Shown piece by piece: positions 5,232-21,686 of a DNA stretch of 21,686 nucleotides. A program made the translations under genes and the position numbers. The notes under the pieces were generated by a model that did not search any database, was not told the origin of the DNA, and was given only the letters and a program-made list of their open reading frames with translations. This DNA comes from a virus, in the IMG/VR virus record IMGVR_UViG_3300030108_000665, positions 1 to 21,686 of that record. One strand, 5' to 3'. Each line of letters starts with the position of its first letter. The stretch's first letter is position 1.

Positions 5232-5270
5232 TTGACATTTTTTACATTTATTGTAAATTAAATTTATAAT
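5232..5270 (+). promoter_or_regulatory. Candidate promoter/operator before the oxygenase cassette
   Basis: The 38-base gap holds TTGACA (5232-5237), a perfect dyad TTTACA-5-TGTAAA (5241-5257) and TATAAT (5265-5270). TTTACA at 5241-5246 is 18 bases from TATAAT, giving a plausible sigma70 promoter, but its transcript would start inside the first oxygenase gene, whose ATG is at 5269. TTGACA pairs 16 bases away only with the poorer TAAATT (5254-5259), which would give a normal short leader. The dyad could bind a regulator. The base composition is so AT-rich that chance matches are likely. Confidence 0.35.
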
Positions 5271-5760
5271 GGTTAAGAAAGTAAAATACAGAGTAGAAGA
5301 TTTTTTTATAACTAATGAAGAATTAAAAAATATTCAACAAGTAATATTGAACAAGAATTTTCCTTGGTACTGTTCAGTTGGAGTGTCTTCTGCCATGAAT
5401 AAAGATGGAGTGTATTTTACACACATGCTCTATCAAGATAAAATTACTTCAGAACACACATCAATAGTTGATCCTATTTTAAAAAAATTAAAAGCTTTTT
5501 GTATAAAAAGAATAAAAGTTAACATGTACCCTGCAACTCATAAAATTTTTGAACATGAAAAACATAGAGATTATCCCGAAAAACATAAAGGTTTTTTATT
5601 TTATATAAATAACAATAATGGTTTTACCCGTATGAGTGATAAAACTAAAATTGAAAGTAGAGAAAATAGAGGTTTATTTTTTGATCCTAGTGATTTTCAC
5701 AATAGTTCAACATGCACAGATGAGCCCTACAGAATAAATATTAATTTTAATTATGTATAA
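5269..5760 (+). CDS. 2-oxoglutarate/Fe(II) oxygenase, HxD type, 163 aa
   Basis: This small protein has the iron-binding facial triad of the double-stranded beta-helix oxygenases: H99-R-D101 and the distal H144 in the phrase DFHNSS. R155, eleven residues after H144 in EPYRININF, is placed to bind the 2-oxoglutarate carboxylate. Such enzymes couple decarboxylation of 2-oxoglutarate to hydroxylation of a substrate, which here is unknown. At 163 residues it is near the lower size limit, little more than the catalytic core. It is the first of five oxygenase genes. There is no good Shine-Dalgarno (GGAGA-like sequence absent), and TATAAT overlaps the ATG. Its stop overlaps the next start as TAATG. 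The family assignment rests on the motif and on overall pattern. Confidence 0.72.
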   Translation: MVKKVKYRVEDFFITNEELKNIQQVILNKNFPWYCSVGVSSAMNKDGVYFTHMLYQDKITSEHTSIVDPILKKLKAFCIKRIKVNMYPATHKIFEHEKHRDYPEKHKGFLFYINNNNGFTRMSDKTKIESRENRGLFFDPSDFHNSSTCTDEPYRININFNYV

Positions 5761-6425
5761 TGACTGAACAAGTTTTATATAAAGTAATTAAAAATGCAAT
5801 TTCTAAAGAATTAGCTGAGTTTTGCTATGAATATTTAAGACTAAAAAGTAGAGCCGTTGCCATTATGTACAATAGAAAAGAATTTACTAAACGTAATGTG
5901 TATTTAGGTTATTTTAATGATCCTCAGGTTCCAGGTTGCTATAGCATGTATGCAGATCCTGTAATGGAAACATTACTAATAAAAGTATTACCTAAATTAG
6001 AAGAGTGTTTAGATAAAGAATTAGTTCCAACGTATTCTTATTGTAGATTTTATAGAAAAGGAAATGAACTAAAAAGACATAAAGATAGAGACAGTTGTGA
6101 AATATCCACCACACTACATTTGGGTGGAGACCCGTGGCCTATTTATGTAGAACCAGATCATACAAAAGGAAGAGATACTCCTAATGGATACATGTCTGAA
6201 CAAACAAAAGGAGTTCAGATAGACTTAGAACCTGGAGACATGTTAATCTATTATGGGAGAGAAATAGAACATTGGAGAGAACCTTTTAAAAAAGATAAAT
6301 GTGCTCAAGTTTTTCTTCATTATAATGATTTAAATGGTGCATTGAAAGATACTAATTTATTTGATGGAAGATTGGAATTAGGTTTACAATCAGTTGGAAA
6401 AAAACTAGATGTTCCTAAAACATAA
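5760..6425 (+). CDS. 2-oxoglutarate/Fe(II) oxygenase, prolyl-hydroxylase-like, 221 aa
   Basis: The core runs from YSYCRFYRKG (residues 92-101) into RHKDRD, giving the ligands H107 and D109. LEPGDMLIYYG at about 156-166 is the usual strand before the distal ligand, which I assign to H171 in EIEHWREPF. A second histidine, H187 in VFLHYND, lies in the last core strand. This EHWR type is common in cyanophages and other marine phages, where it is annotated as 2OG-Fe(II) oxygenase; the substrate is not known. The C-terminal 30 residues extend beyond the core. The start overlaps the previous stop as TAATG at 5758-5762. The next gene begins 17 bases before the end of this one. Confidence 0.8.
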   Translation: MTEQVLYKVIKNAISKELAEFCYEYLRLKSRAVAIMYNRKEFTKRNVYLGYFNDPQVPGCYSMYADPVMETLLIKVLPKLEECLDKELVPTYSYCRFYRKGNELKRHKDRDSCEISTTLHLGGDPWPIYVEPDHTKGRDTPNGYMSEQTKGVQIDLEPGDMLIYYGREIEHWREPFKKDKCAQVFLHYNDLNGALKDTNLFDGRLELGLQSVGKKLDVPKT

Positions 6426-6930
6426 GAAAGTTAATATTAATAAATTTTTAGAAGAAATGAAAAAGTGTAAAACAGTAAATGTAAATTGTGATTTATTAAA
6501 ATCAAAATCTACACAAGGAGTTAATTCTTCTCAAATAGAGTTAATTAATATAAGTAAATTGTCTAAACTATTTCTAGAAGCTATGAAAGATCTTATAGAA
6601 ATTAATAATTTAAAACCTACTTCTTGTTGGAGTGTTTCTGGAGACGAGGGTTCTTATCATAGAATACATAGACACCTACCTTTTAATGGAGAGAATGTAG
6701 AAAAAACTAATAGAATATCTACAATTTTATATTTGGATGTACCCTCTAAAACTAAAATAGCAGATGGAGATTTTTACTTTGTTATAAAAGAAGATGATGA
6801 AATAAGATCATATAGTATTGAGCCCAAGGTAGGTGATTTTATAGTCATGTCTGCAAATGTATTTCACGGAACTTATCCACAAAGCAAAGGTTTAAGAAGA
6901 ACTTTAAACATGGATTTTATTTATGCATAA
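6409..6930 (+). CDS. Probable 2-oxoglutarate/Fe(II) oxygenase with HxH motif, 173 aa
   Basis: The second half has the outline of an oxygenase core: SYHRIHRHLPF with H87-R-H89 in place of HxD, VGDFIVMSANVFHG with distal H153, and GLRRTLNMDF, where R163 or R164 could bind 2-oxoglutarate. A His in the second ligand position is seen in one putative 2OG-oxygenase family (2OG-FeII_Oxy_5), but there is an extra H84, so the ligand pair could be H84/H87 or H87/H89. Residues 1-70 are Lys-rich and helical and not recognised. The ATG at 6409 lies inside the upstream gene; a second ATG at 6457 is possible and would remove 16 residues. The frame overlaps the next gene by 8 bases. Confidence 0.6.
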   Translation: MFLKHKKVNINKFLEEMKKCKTVNVNCDLLKSKSTQGVNSSQIELINISKLSKLFLEAMKDLIEINNLKPTSCWSVSGDEGSYHRIHRHLPFNGENVEKTNRISTILYLDVPSKTKIADGDFYFVIKEDDEIRSYSIEPKVGDFIVMSANVFHGTYPQSKGLRRTLNMDFIYA

Positions 6931-7585
6931 ATTTGAAAAATTAAAATTATTTACACCAATAATTTATACTCTTAAAATAGATCCAAAATCTTTTGATAAA
7001 CAAAAACTTATAAAAACTATTACTGCTAATTATAAAAAACAACCAGAAAGAAATTTTTTTGATGGAAAGTCTGAATTAGGTAGATCTAATTCGCACCATA
7101 CCTATAATGATAATACTAATGAAAAATTTAAAAAAATAAATTTTGAATCTTTAATAAAAGTTTATAGTAAAATTTTTAAATTATTTTTTGATAATGAATT
7201 TAAAGCCTCTAAACCATTTAAATATACTTATTCAATAGAAAATGCTACTGCAATGGGTAAAGATCAATACATGAATTCTCATTGTCATTTACCAAGTTCT
7301 TTTTCTTGTGTTCATTATTTAAAAATAAATGAAAATAATTCAGGAATAACTTTTAAAAATCCAAATAATCTATCTGAAACCATGCAATGGGTAGCCCCTA
7401 AATCATATAATATTTTAAATAAAATAGATTCTAGTAATAGTTATTTTTTTCCTACTTTTAATTTAATACCTAAAGAAGATACAATGTTAATTTTTCCTTC
7501 TACATTACATCATGCGGTAGGAAGACAAATTAGTGGTAAAAATCTTAGAATTAGTGTAGCAACCAATATAACATTAGATGAATAA
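6923..7585 (+). CDS. Putative 2-oxoglutarate/Fe(II) oxygenase (Oxy_5-like), 220 aa
   Basis: The motif order fits the 2OG-FeII_Oxy_5 family: MNSHCHLP with H120 and H122, SSFSCVHYLK as the following strand, IFPSTLHHAVG with distal H197, and LRISVATNI with R209. The family signature FPSxLxHxV is met exactly. This family is widespread in marine bacteria and phages and its substrate is not established. Residues 1-100 form a Lys- and Phe-rich N-terminal region. The gene is the most AT-rich in the window: by hand count 94 of 420 bases (22%) are G or C between 7021 and 7440. It overlaps its neighbours by 8 bases on both sides (ATGCATAA and ATGAATAA). Confidence 0.75.
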   Translation: MHKFEKLKLFTPIIYTLKIDPKSFDKQKLIKTITANYKKQPERNFFDGKSELGRSNSHHTYNDNTNEKFKKINFESLIKVYSKIFKLFFDNEFKASKPFKYTYSIENATAMGKDQYMNSHCHLPSSFSCVHYLKINENNSGITFKNPNNLSETMQWVAPKSYNILNKIDSSNSYFFPTFNLIPKEDTMLIFPSTLHHAVGRQISGKNLRISVATNITLDE

Positions 7586-8174
7586 AAAAATACAAAGTTC
7601 AGTTTGGACATTTGAACTAGATAAAGTTAATTTGTTTGCTTATTGGGACAGATTATTTACTCCAGAAGAATGTGCTCATATAATTAAAATAGGAAAAAAA
7701 CTTTCTTTAGAAAAAGGTAAGGTATCAACCACAAATCCCAAAGAAGATTACAAAATAAGAAAAAGTAAAGTTTCTTGGATTTATCCTGAAAAAGAAACTA
7801 GATTTATATTTGAAAAAATTAGTAAAACTGTATTAAATTTAAATGAAAGATTTTTTGGTTTTGATGTAACTTCAATGTCCGAAGGATTTCAATTTACAAA
7901 TTATAAAGCTCCTGGATCTCATTATGGTAAACATATAGATAGATCTCAAGAAAGTTTACCAAGAAAACTTTCGATATCAGTTCAACTTACAGATCCCTCT
8001 AAATACAGTGGAGGAGATTTAATACTTCACGATGGTCCAGAACCGATTGTAATGAGAAAACAAATAGGGGACTTAGTTGTATTTCCAAGTTATGTTCTTC
8101 ACGAAGTTACTCCTGTAACTAAAGGTGAAAGAAATTCACTAGTTTGTTGGGTAACGGGTCCTAGTTTTAAATAA
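7578..8174 (+). CDS. PKHD-type 2-oxoglutarate/Fe(II) hydroxylase, 198 aa
   Basis: This is the clearest oxygenase of the five. It shows YKAPGSHYGKHIDRS with H119 and D121, LSISVQLTDPSKYSGGDLIL at 131-150, IGDLVVFPSYVLHEVTPV with distal H175, and GERNSLVCW with R185 for 2-oxoglutarate. The order and the phrases GGDL, FPS and HEVTPVTKGER match PKHD-type hydroxylases such as bacterial PiuC and the prolyl 4-hydroxylase core. The likely reaction is hydroxylation of a protein or small molecule. An opening FxxxxCxxII-type segment (residues 27-37) is also usual for the family. It is the last gene of the cassette; a promoter candidate for the next module follows directly. Confidence 0.87.
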   Translation: MNKKIQSSVWTFELDKVNLFAYWDRLFTPEECAHIIKIGKKLSLEKGKVSTTNPKEDYKIRKSKVSWIYPEKETRFIFEKISKTVLNLNERFFGFDVTSMSEGFQFTNYKAPGSHYGKHIDRSQESLPRKLSISVQLTDPSKYSGGDLILHDGPEPIVMRKQIGDLVVFPSYVLHEVTPVTKGERNSLVCWVTGPSFK

Positions 8175-18986: not shown

Positions 18987-19459
18987 ATTTGAGTCGTAAC
19001 TTCACCCTTCAAGAGCTTATTAAATCGGACACTGCGATCAGGTTAGATATTAATAACAATCCTAACTCAGGTCAGATTGAAAAATTAAAAGCATTGTGTG
19101 AAAATATTCTTCAACCGGTTCGAGACCATTTTGGCAGAGTAAAAGTGACTAGCGGATTTCGTTCTGAACAACTTTGTTTAAAAATAGGTAGCTCTGTAAA
19201 TTCACAGCACGCCAAGGCCGAGGCCGCAGACTTCGAATGTATGGGCACAGACAATGCAGAATTAGCTGACTGGATTTATTCAAACCTAGATTTTGATCAA
19301 TTAATATTAGAGTTTTATACACCAGGAGAACCAAACAGTGGGTGGATACACTGCAGCTATACTACTGATCAACCAAGAAAACAATTTTTACATGCTTTTA
19401 AATCAGAGGGTAAAACTAAATACAAACCAGTATTAGGAAAGGCAAAAGATATAGTCTAG
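18983..19459 (+). CDS. M15-type peptidase, probable endolysin (158 aa)
   Basis: The protein has the complete zinc motif of peptidase M15 (DD- or LD-carboxypeptidase-like, M15_3 family): TSGFRS at 56-61, QHAKAEAADF with zinc ligands H76 and D83, LILEFY with the catalytic E110, and WIHCSY with the third ligand H123. Such enzymes cleave peptide cross-links or stems of peptidoglycan and in phages serve as endolysins. At 158 residues it is a single catalytic domain without a cell-wall binding part or signal peptide. It therefore would need a holin to reach the wall, which agrees with the membrane protein encoded upstream. The gene overlaps the convergent helicase gene through a shared CTAG at 19456-19459. 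Confidence 0.85.
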   Translation: MNLSRNFTLQELIKSDTAIRLDINNNPNSGQIEKLKALCENILQPVRDHFGRVKVTSGFRSEQLCLKIGSSVNSQHAKAEAADFECMGTDNAELADWIYSNLDFDQLILEFYTPGEPNSGWIHCSYTTDQPRKQFLHAFKSEGKTKYKPVLGKAKDIV

Positions 19460-20886
19460 ATCCATTCTTTCATTTCTTCTCCCATAACTTCTGATGCTAT
19501 GTTTATTTTTTTACGTAAAGCTTCTACAATCTTTTCATCAATTGTATCTTCAGCTATTAAATCAATATAAGTTACATTTTTCTTCTGTCCTATTCTGTGT
19601 GCTCTGTCCTCTGACTGTAATCTTTTCTCAAGGTCATAACCATTAGAATAGTAAACAACTGTATTTGCTTTTGTGAGTGTAATACCATACCCACCAGTCT
19701 GTGGCGTGCCTATTATAAATCTACATTCCGGACCATTTTGAAACTTACGAATATTATCTTGTCTATCTTCTTGTGGTGTCAAACCATAATAATCTACAAT
19801 AGATTCTTCACCGTATTTTTCTACAATATTTTTTATTATTTGGTTTACATCTCTTTGATAGTTAGCCCATATAATAACTTTACCCTCCGTCTCTTCTAAT
19901 ATATTCATTAATTCTTTTATTCTATTGTTGTCTATTAATTGCGTAGTACCATCATCAGCAGTAAAATGACCACAAGTTATTTGATGTAATCTCATAAGCT
20001 GAGTTAACACAGTCATGGTGGTTGTAACTTTACCATTTAATATAGCCATAGCTGCTTTCTTCATCTGCTCGTATATTTTTCTTTGGTCATGTGTAAGCAC
20101 AATATGTCTTTTAGTAAAATTTTTAGGTGGTAAATCTAAACAATCTTCTTTTAACACTCTATCTGAAAATGTTTTTACAATGTCTGATAACTCACTAAGA
20201 TTTTGAAACTTACTTACAACTTGTATAGATCTGCCTCTTACATGCATTGTTTTCATAATTGCATATCTGTTTCTAAAAGAATAGTAGGAAGCATGATCTA
20301 ATAAATAAGGATCTAAAAAATAACACTGTGTATATAAATCTAATGGATTTTTTGTAATAGGAGATCCTGTCATTATTCTTCTGTATTTTGCTTTTTCTCC
20401 TAAATCTATTATATTTCTAGTTCTTTTAGCAGTGGGTGTTTTTATAGTGGTTGACTCATCTATAGCCATTAAAACTTTATGTGAATTTAAAAATTTAGAA
20501 GCAAATTTAACACCTTTATCTGTAGATAAAGCCTCAACATTCATAATTAAAATGTGTAAAGCAGTTTCTATTTCAAATAAAGAATTTAATTTTTCTTCCT
20601 GACTTTTTGTAATATTTGGTTGCCACAATACAGTTACATTTTCTATATGATTTGGTAAATGTGTAGGTAATTCTTGTTCGTACCAAGTCTTAACAACACC
20701 TTTTGGTGCAATAATTAAGGCACCATCAATCTTACCTTTGTCATACAACATAGCAACATTGTCTATTAATACTTTTGTTTTACCTGTCCCCATTTCCATA
20801 AAATAAGCGTAGTTTTCTTTGTTCCATGACTTTTTTAAAGCAGTTAATTGATGCTCATATGGTTTTGTTTTAAATTTATAATTCAT
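19456..20886 (-). CDS. SNF2-family DEAD-like helicase/translocase (476 aa)
   Basis: All main superfamily 2 motifs are present. Numbered from the chosen start: MGTGKT at 32-37 (Walker A), DEST at 143-146 (Walker B), MTGSP at 172-176 (motif III), GTPQTGGYGITL at about 393-404 (motif V) and QSEDRAHRIGQ at 424-434 (motif VI). The last is the SNF2 signature. It probably remodels or translocates along phage DNA during replication, recombination or transcription. I chose the ATG at 20886 because AGAAAGAAG precedes it and because a start at 20913 would lie upstream of the likely transcription start in the palindrome. It is the only minus-strand gene and is convergent with the lysis genes. Some phages carry similar stand-alone helicases of unknown exact role. 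Confidence 0.88.
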   Translation of the reverse strand: MNYKFKTKPYEHQLTALKKSWNKENYAYFMEMGTGKTKVLIDNVAMLYDKGKIDGALIIAPKGVVKTWYEQELPTHLPNHIENVTVLWQPNITKSQEEKLNSLFEIETALHILIMNVEALSTDKGVKFASKFLNSHKVLMAIDESTTIKTPTAKRTRNIIDLGEKAKYRRIMTGSPITKNPLDLYTQCYFLDPYLLDHASYYSFRNRYAIMKTMHVRGRSIQVVSKFQNLSELSDIVKTFSDRVLKEDCLDLPPKNFTKRHIVLTHDQRKIYEQMKKAAMAILNGKVTTTMTVLTQLMRLHQITCGHFTADDGTTQLIDNNRIKELMNILEETEGKVIIWANYQRDVNQIIKNIVEKYGEESIVDYYGLTPQEDRQDNIRKFQNGPECRFIIGTPQTGGYGITLTKANTVVYYSNGYDLEKRLQSEDRAHRIGQKKNVTYIDLIAEDTIDEKIVEALRKKINIASEVMGEEMKEWI

Positions 20887-20906: not shown

Positions 20907-20939
20907 TTGACATATAATCCAGGATGCATTATATGTCAA
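20907..20939. promoter_or_regulatory. Perfect 12-bp inverted repeat: likely divergent promoter/operator
   Basis: TTGACATATAAT at 20907-20918 is repeated in exact inverted form at 20928-20939, with a 9-base spacer. Each arm contains TTGACA followed directly by TATAAT. Read across the repeat, both strands show TTGACA, 17 bases, TATATG (20930-20935 on the plus strand, 20916-20911 on the minus strand). Symmetric transcription in both directions is therefore possible, with starts near 20942 and 20904. It sits between the only divergent gene pair, helicase and the 119-residue gene. It may also bind a dimeric regulator or form a hairpin in RNA. Confidence 0.6.
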
Positions 20940-20945
20940 GGCATA

Positions 20946-21305
20946 ATGTCAGAAAGAAAAGTTTATGTAATACAACATATTGCTGGAACACAAGCCGGTA
21001 ACCCTAAAATAAATATTATAGGCGCACAAAAATATGGTGAGTTTAAATTTTTATTGCCGGAGTTTTCGCAAATGATTTTTTCTCCTGGTCCTTTAATTTT
21101 TAAATTAAGACAAGGATTAAAAGATTTTACAGAGAAAGATCATTTATTATTAACAGGTGATCCTGCATTAATAGGTGTAGCATGTTCTATTGTATCTGAT
21201 ATTACAAATGGTAAATACAATTTATTAAAATGGGATAAACAAGAAAGAAAATATTATCCTATATCTATTAATTTATACGAGAAAGGAGAAATAGATGACA
21301 ATTGA
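20946..21305 (+). CDS. Conserved marine phage protein of unknown function (119 aa)
   Basis: I start the gene at ATG 20946 (MSERKVYVIQHIAG). The frame is open upstream to a TTG at 20907, but those codons lie in the palindrome and read poorly as protein. The product contains KYGEFKFLLPEFSQM at about 30-44, LRQGLKDF at about 55-62 and HLLLTGDPALIG at about 67-78. I recognise this as a small protein often found in early regions of uncultured marine phages, without known role. No catalytic motif or membrane segment is seen. The only Shine-Dalgarno-like sequence is AAGG at 20938-20941. The end overlaps the next gene by 11 bases. Confidence 0.65.
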   Translation: MSERKVYVIQHIAGTQAGNPKINIIGAQKYGEFKFLLPEFSQMIFSPGPLIFKLRQGLKDFTEKDHLLLTGDPALIGVACSIVSDITNGKYNLLKWDKQERKYYPISINLYEKGEIDDN

Positions 21306-21686
21306 TTTTGAAAGAGACCAACAAGATGCAATGAAGAAGACTACCAATATTCAATCACTTGCAGATCAAGTAGAAAGATTAGAGGGTGTTGCTTCAGACA
21401 TAGAAGTAGCAGAAAATAATTTAAAAGAATTAAAAAAGAAAAGAGACCATATATCGGGTGATATTATACCGACTATGATGTCTGAAATGGGACTTGCAGA
21501 ATTAAAACTGCATGATGGATCACATTTAAAAGTTTCAACGTCGTATCGTGCTACCATAACGGAAGCAAATAAAGAAGCGGCGTATAACTGGCTTCGTAAC
21601 AATGGACTGGGGGATATAATCAAAAATGAGATATCCGTATCCTTTGGTCGCAACGAAGATAACAAGGCGGCTGATTATGCCGAACT
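21295..21686 (+). CDS. Coiled-coil phage protein of unknown function, 3' end missing
   Basis: A strong AAGGAG (21283-21288) stands 6 bases before the ATG at 21295, and the frame stays open to the window end, giving 130 visible residues. Residues 14-52 form a coiled coil (LADQVERLEGVASDIEVAEN and following). Then come ELKLHDGSHLKVSTSYRATI at about 69-88 and AAYNWLRNNGLGDIIKN at about 95-111, followed by VSFGRNED. I recall the combination of coiled coil, DGS-type strand, Trp-Leu-Arg helix and SFGR-ED end from small early-region phage proteins of unknown function. It overlaps the upstream gene by 11 bases, so the two are co-transcribed. The end of the protein lies beyond the window. Confidence 0.62.
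   Translation, partial: MTIDFERDQQDAMKKTTNIQSLADQVERLEGVASDIEVAENNLKELKKKRDHISGDIIPTMMSEMGLAELKLHDGSHLKVSTSYRATITEANKEAAYNWLRNNGLGDIIKNEISVSFGRNEDNKAADYAE

Follow-up and report, generated by a model that had tools for sequence, protein, structure and literature searches.

The bio operator of E. coli holds overlapping divergent promoters under an identified regulator, and a polymerase on one blocks the other. On plasmid pLS20, the outward Pc and Pr promoters also overlap and a bound polymerase blocks the other promoter, with the part of the report concerned describing an identified regulator and two unequal promoters (PMC4207663). The bacterial bidirectional promoters of Warman, Grainger, Wade and colleagues are, in the extracts of their reports drawn on here, short symmetric DNA on which sigma-70 polymerase can take either orientation, each excluding the other (PMC12825309, PMC10268837). 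In the same extracts they often lie between divergent genes, share one -10, and are defined by divergent starts 7-25 bp apart with reciprocally overlapping -10 positions. The natural E. coli examples tested there were too weak for polymerase competition, which was created when a -35 was strengthened (PMC12825309). Literature searches found no promoter analysis of the phages described below; "promoter" occurs 0 times in PMC12753301, a transcriptome paper whose text names neither gp01 nor gp87, the two HTVC027P neighbours, and "palindrom" and "intergenic" occur 0 times in PMC9599517.

A related arrangement is present in an IMG/VR virus record, of which a stretch of 21,686 nucleotides (the window) was analysed. 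Window positions 20907-20939 form a palindromic element reading TTGACATATAATCCAGGATGCATTATATGTCAA, with arms TTGACATATAAT and ATTATATGTCAA and a gap of 9 bases. It is probably a symmetric, interlocked two-way promoter for the host sigma-70 polymerase in HTVC023P-type pelagiphages, a reading drawn from sequence patterns and with predicted starts. The sequence-only reading had reported the coordinates, sequence and 12-9-12 layout of the palindrome, and all were as claimed when re-read from the window. It had also described TTGACA-17-TATATG on both strands, and the same boxes were found with a 17-base spacer. Its statement that the element lies at the only divergent gene pair is true among the convincing genes of the window, with the element inside that pair. 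The features are as follows.

20907-20939, no strand: putative 33-bp palindromic two-way promoter element, from its sequence, shuffles and conservation at the junction
20907-20912, plus strand: -35 box TTGACA of the rightward promoter, exact in 90 of 103 distinct 33-, 34- and 37-bp alleles
20930-20935, plus strand: predicted -10 box TATATG of the rightward promoter, 17-base spacer; relatives of 33 or 34 bp have TATATG at 17 or TATATT at 16 or 17
20934-20939, minus strand: -35 box TTGACA of the leftward promoter, exact in 102 of 103 distinct 33-, 34- and 37-bp alleles
20911-20916, minus strand: predicted -10 box TATATG of the leftward promoter, 17-base spacer
20942, plus strand: predicted rightward transcription start, placed from the -10 position, with a 4-base leader, CATA
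20904, minus strand: predicted leftward transcription start, placed from the -10 position, with an 18-base leader, purine-rich AGAAAGAAG
19456-20886, minus strand: SNF2/DEAD-type helicase, the leftward gene (PF00176, PF00271, phrog_62)
20946-21305, plus strand: first rightward gene, Pam3 gp32-like, function unassigned (PF23992, phrog_5888)
21295-21684, plus strand: second rightward gene, Pam3 gp33-like (DUF7307), running off the window end (PF23984, phrog_2378)

Like the published bidirectional promoters, the element is short and symmetric, sits between divergent genes and is predicted to bind one polymerase to the exclusion of another. However, its -10s are separate rather than shared, each abutting or overlapping the opposite -35, and both -35s are near consensus. 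The predicted starts are 38 bp apart in the window and 28-39 bp apart across 105 distinct alleles, which is outside the 7-25 bp definition. With starts so placed, the element would work on the same principle as these promoters while not being a member by their definition. The halves are near mirror images, in contrast to the unequal promoters of pLS20. As consensus -35s occur on both sides in nature, the element would offer a ready-made test of strong competition between orientations.

Both strands of the window element match the -35 consensus at 6/6 bases and have a spacer of 17, within the 16-18 bp typical of sigma-70 promoters, with the 37-bp class of relatives being looser. Transcripts of such promoters begin some 7 bases past the -10. 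Both -10s read TATATG, with the A at -11 present and the T at -7 absent. T at -7 is one of the two best conserved promoter bases. In the window form, overlap with the opposite -35 fixes this base; in the 34-bp class the rightward -10 is TATATT in 14/14 distinct alleles. A standard promoter scan of the window did not have the TATATG boxes of the element among the matches listed. The missing -7 T counts against the two-way promoter, as does the 37-bp class, where TATAAT at 19 bases, a long spacing, is often the best match leftward. The TATAAT within each arm abuts its own -35 with no spacer and so cannot serve as the -10 of that -35.

Judged from the window alone, the palindrome is just mildly unusual. 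It is the sole perfect inverted repeat in the window whose arms reach 10 bases and whose gap does not exceed 20, compared with a mean of 0.88 such repeats in dinucleotide shuffles of the window (n = 60), and an arm of at least 12 occurred in 3/60 of these shuffles. Conservation in relatives is far stronger evidence. Two IMG/VR scans by helicase similarity gave 160 loci, the best 80 of at least 600 and the best 80 of 343 relatives, and in 149 of them a TTGAC...GTCAA pair lies directly beside the helicase. Five of the other 11 contigs end before the junction, and six loci that had seemed to lack the element carry it, moved away from the helicase by an inserted stretch. The pair is thus found between the SNF2-type helicase and the divergent gene in all 155 of the 160 best-scoring loci able to show it. 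The pattern TTGAC-N23..28-GTCAA has 156 matches in the 1.23 Mb of these loci, spread over 155/160, while 20 single-base shuffles of the loci gave a mean of 5.85 and a maximum of 10.

Scans that used no helicase reference led to the same junction. The window's form was found on 41 contigs, every one with a gap of 9 bases. The TATATT form, TTGACAATATA..TATATTGTCAA, was found on at least 120, with 113 of 34 bp and 7 of 33 bp among the matches listed. A helicase match is present on 39/41 window-form contigs and on 117/120 of the TATATT-form matches listed, and the other five show the first codons of the helicase. As far as each contig reaches, all have the element directly at the junction apart from L170, where it is displaced. 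Inserts, apparently small leftward ORFs, separate promoter and helicase in L251, L292, L304, L305 and L170. As they lie on the helicase side, the element remains with the gp32-like gene.

What is conserved differs in part from the earlier claim. The sequence-only reading had regarded each 12-base arm, a fused TTGACA and TATAAT, as the unit to look for in relatives; the -35 pair is kept at the junction in the 155 loci, but perfect 12-base arms occur in only 2/26 distinct 33-bp alleles, which argues against the fused TTGACATATAAT arm as a functional unit. The TATAAT of the right arm is retained in 4/26. The conserved core consists of a -35 box at either outer edge, and the -10-like box of each usually lies 16-19 bases from it and against the opposite -35. 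With this pair at every junction able to show it, the check that the sequence-only reading had set for itself, whether relatives keep the arms, came out for it, and its proposal of two overlapping promoters, taken here to face outward, is the best supported. Its compact switch between the helicase and the rightward early genes is a hypothesis, as is the binding of a dimeric regulator.

The allele set, comprising the helicase-scan loci and the window, has 105 distinct alleles with edge-to-edge lengths of 33 (26 alleles), 34 (14), 36 (1), 37 (63) and 38 bp (1). Each -35 is separated from its near TATA by 0, 1 or mostly 2-4 bases and from the far -10 by mostly 16-19. The near gap and total length covary while the cross-distances remain near 17, and this compensation fits two promoters and argues against a single rigid site for a dimer. 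Counted from the far -35, the rightward -10 of the 33- and 34-bp forms is TATATG at 17 or TATATT at 16-17, and the leftward is mostly TATATG or TATATT at 17, the rest being TATCTT-like at 16-17. In the 37-bp form, the most frequent rightward boxes are TATAAG, TATGAT or TATAGT at 18 or TATATT at 16; those leftward are TATAAT or TATAGA at 19 and TATATT at 17. A -10 with at least 4/6 matches at 16-18 occurs in both directions in 93/105 distinct alleles, compared with a mean of 25 and a maximum of 38 in 500 interior shuffles. The leftward mean is higher still at 17-19, owing to the 19-base cases. When the best hexamer of the interior was sought, with ties broken towards 17, 20/105 rightward and 19/105 leftward boxes fell outside 16-19. 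The -10 weights and consensus are those of E. coli, and the SAR11 sigma factor may differ.

It is hypothesised that host sigma-70 RNA polymerase would sit on the shared 33-37 bp in either orientation, with the -35 at one edge pairing with the -10 just inside the opposite edge. Facing right, it would start the replication-module operon (gp32-like, gp33-like and, in relatives, primase, helicase and polymerase A) with almost no leader; facing left, it would start transcription of the SNF2-type helicase. As the two footprints coincide, one polymerase could bind at a time, and it is proposed that both operons would consequently be expressed together in a fixed ratio. We infer that both promoters fire at the predicted start sites with the host sigma-70 and, from their overlap, that they would compete for polymerase. 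HTVC027P is said, in the part of its report consulted, to encode no RNA polymerase and to depend on that of the host (PMC12753301). Literature searches found no mapped transcript starts for these phages.

The start codon of the rightward gp32-like gene is ATG 20946. Among 34-bp forms, the corresponding ATG is found 2 bases past the element in 94/98 distinct flanks, 1 base past the predicted start, and in the 33-bp class it lies 2, 3 or 6 bases past in 48/52 flanks. In the 37-bp class it overlaps the final base of the element in 26/81 flanks and is 10 bases past it in 34/81. These positions predict a rightward message that is leaderless or nearly so in most 33- and 34-bp forms and about one third of 37-bp forms. 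The helicase most likely starts at ATG 20886; the choice of the ORF caller, the ATG at 20911-20913 inside the palindrome, is 9 codons too early. On the leftward side, a conserved leader 61-64 bases past the element in nine contigs was counted in favour of the two-way promoter. It has a core of GGGTWAGGAGYGAATGACGATCTTCCTAGGCGTAT ... TAATACGCCC in the interval between promoter and helicase (L004 5838-6000, L061 5836-5998 and L349-L355) and a loop of varying length, and is probably a structured RNA. An Rfam search with this leader gave no match.

In relatives, the rightward side carries gp32-like and gp33-like genes followed by primase, helicase and polymerase A. In Pam3 and Rhizobium phage RHph_I65, a helicase immediately precedes, in the same orientation, two short genes matching in size and order, with the gp32/gp33 correspondence based on Pfam family names and gene order. 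The element suggests how a helicase that is in line with the short genes in those phages could be inverted in pelagiphages yet remain driven together with them.

The alternative that survives best is an operator as the main role of the palindrome, bound by a dimeric (or tetrameric) regulator that phage or host encodes and that controls one divergent gene or both. The symmetry of the palindrome and its place between divergent genes are consistent with this, as are the strictly discrete lengths, with 33, 34 or 37 bp in 103/105 distinct alleles. Lengths of 35, 36 and 38 are missing or almost missing, a tighter restriction than promoter spacing by itself would impose. Length class (33/34 short, 36-38 long) also changes repeatedly: quick trees require at least 11 changes for the helicase (76 rows) and 8 for the rightward gene (74 rows), and the classes could represent operator types. 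These trees cover the window and the undisplaced first-scan loci reaching the junction, and recombination and weak branches can inflate the counts. As a length of 35 was never seen, class switching by segment exchange is likelier than stepwise indels. However, a dimeric operator has a fixed half-site spacing on one DNA face, whereas 33, 34 and 37 bp occur in related phages, a shift in edge-to-edge distance of 4 bp or about one third of a helical turn. Arm symmetry extends over just 5-7 bases in 60/63 distinct 37-bp alleles, the part kept being the -35-like boxes. Pfam and PHROG annotation of ten window proteins per library, including both neighbours of the element, matched neither neighbour to a regulator family. 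An operator as the main role is therefore unlikely.

It is improbable that one direction only is a working promoter, with the mirror match a by-product of AT-rich overlap. In favour of this, the 37-bp class and some 33-bp alleles have weaker leftward boxes or boxes at unusual spacings, but the exact TTGACA is kept at both edges in nearly all of the 103 distinct alleles (left 90, right 102), both flanking genes require a promoter, and there is roughly one -35 pair per locus. That the element is instead a replication origin, recombination site or terminator is very improbable: although the records of deposited relatives open at this junction, the conserved portions match -35/-10 boxes, the cumulative GC skew of 023Pt_psg01 climbs nearly genome-wide with no turn at the element beyond the arbitrary record start (hence an origin was rejected), and a terminator was likewise rejected as the stem is not followed by a T-run and the element is not among the results of the terminator scan of the window.

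A broader interpretation can be put forward tentatively. Two-way promoters of this kind, in which strong -35s mirror each other and the -10s interlock instead of being shared, may form a distinct class that would hard-wire a one-polymerase-at-a-time choice between helicase and replication operon in abundant ocean phages. Its discrete 33-, 34- and 37-bp alleles may be exchanged between lineages, perhaps as some cellular factor, such as a repressor or a competing phage, recognises one type. The host group comprises the ocean's most common bacteria.

The two cultured relatives, HTVC027P and HTVC023P, both with Pelagibacter HTCC1062 as host, lack the palindrome at the junction, which counts against the two-way promoter. 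In place of a palindromic -35 pair, HTVC027P has TTTACT-18-TATAAT rightward and TTGACT-17-TATATA leftward with overlapping -10s (10/12 and 9/12 box matches, respectively), and HTVC023P has just a 9/12 rightward match. The deposited relative 023Pt_psg01 has the same junction and carries a 37-bp palindrome. Further copies of the palindrome, as the sequence-only reading had suggested seeking, were absent from the window's own record, and 023Pt_psg01 has none besides the junction copy. Away from the junction, HTVC027P has a single unrelated pair of 29 bp. Three sites in HTVC027P, at 19224 and 19774 (plus strand) and 17718 (minus strand), resemble one-way promoters of the form TTGACA-17-TAGGAT; they apparently precede genes and may form a temporal class of their own.

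A scan of bacterial genomes for TTGACATATA-N11..15-TATATGTCAA found 15 contigs. Four are SAR11 single-cell contigs bearing the phage helicase and the element (L327, L332, L333 and L338, from SAG-MED41, 48, 47 and 49, respectively), likely from infected cells or carry-over. In three of these the helicase appears as two overlapping matches, as if the frame were broken. The other 11 (L328-L331, L334-L337 and L339-L341) come from scattered, unrelated bacteria and hold similar TTGACATATA palindromes with gaps of 11-15, which may be chance, operators or other two-way promoters. Elsewhere in the window, five adjacent genes occupy 5269-8174, of which two match 2OG-Fe(II) oxygenase families above the Pfam cut-off and one below it, and one gene of this run matches a PHROG labelled ferrochelatase.
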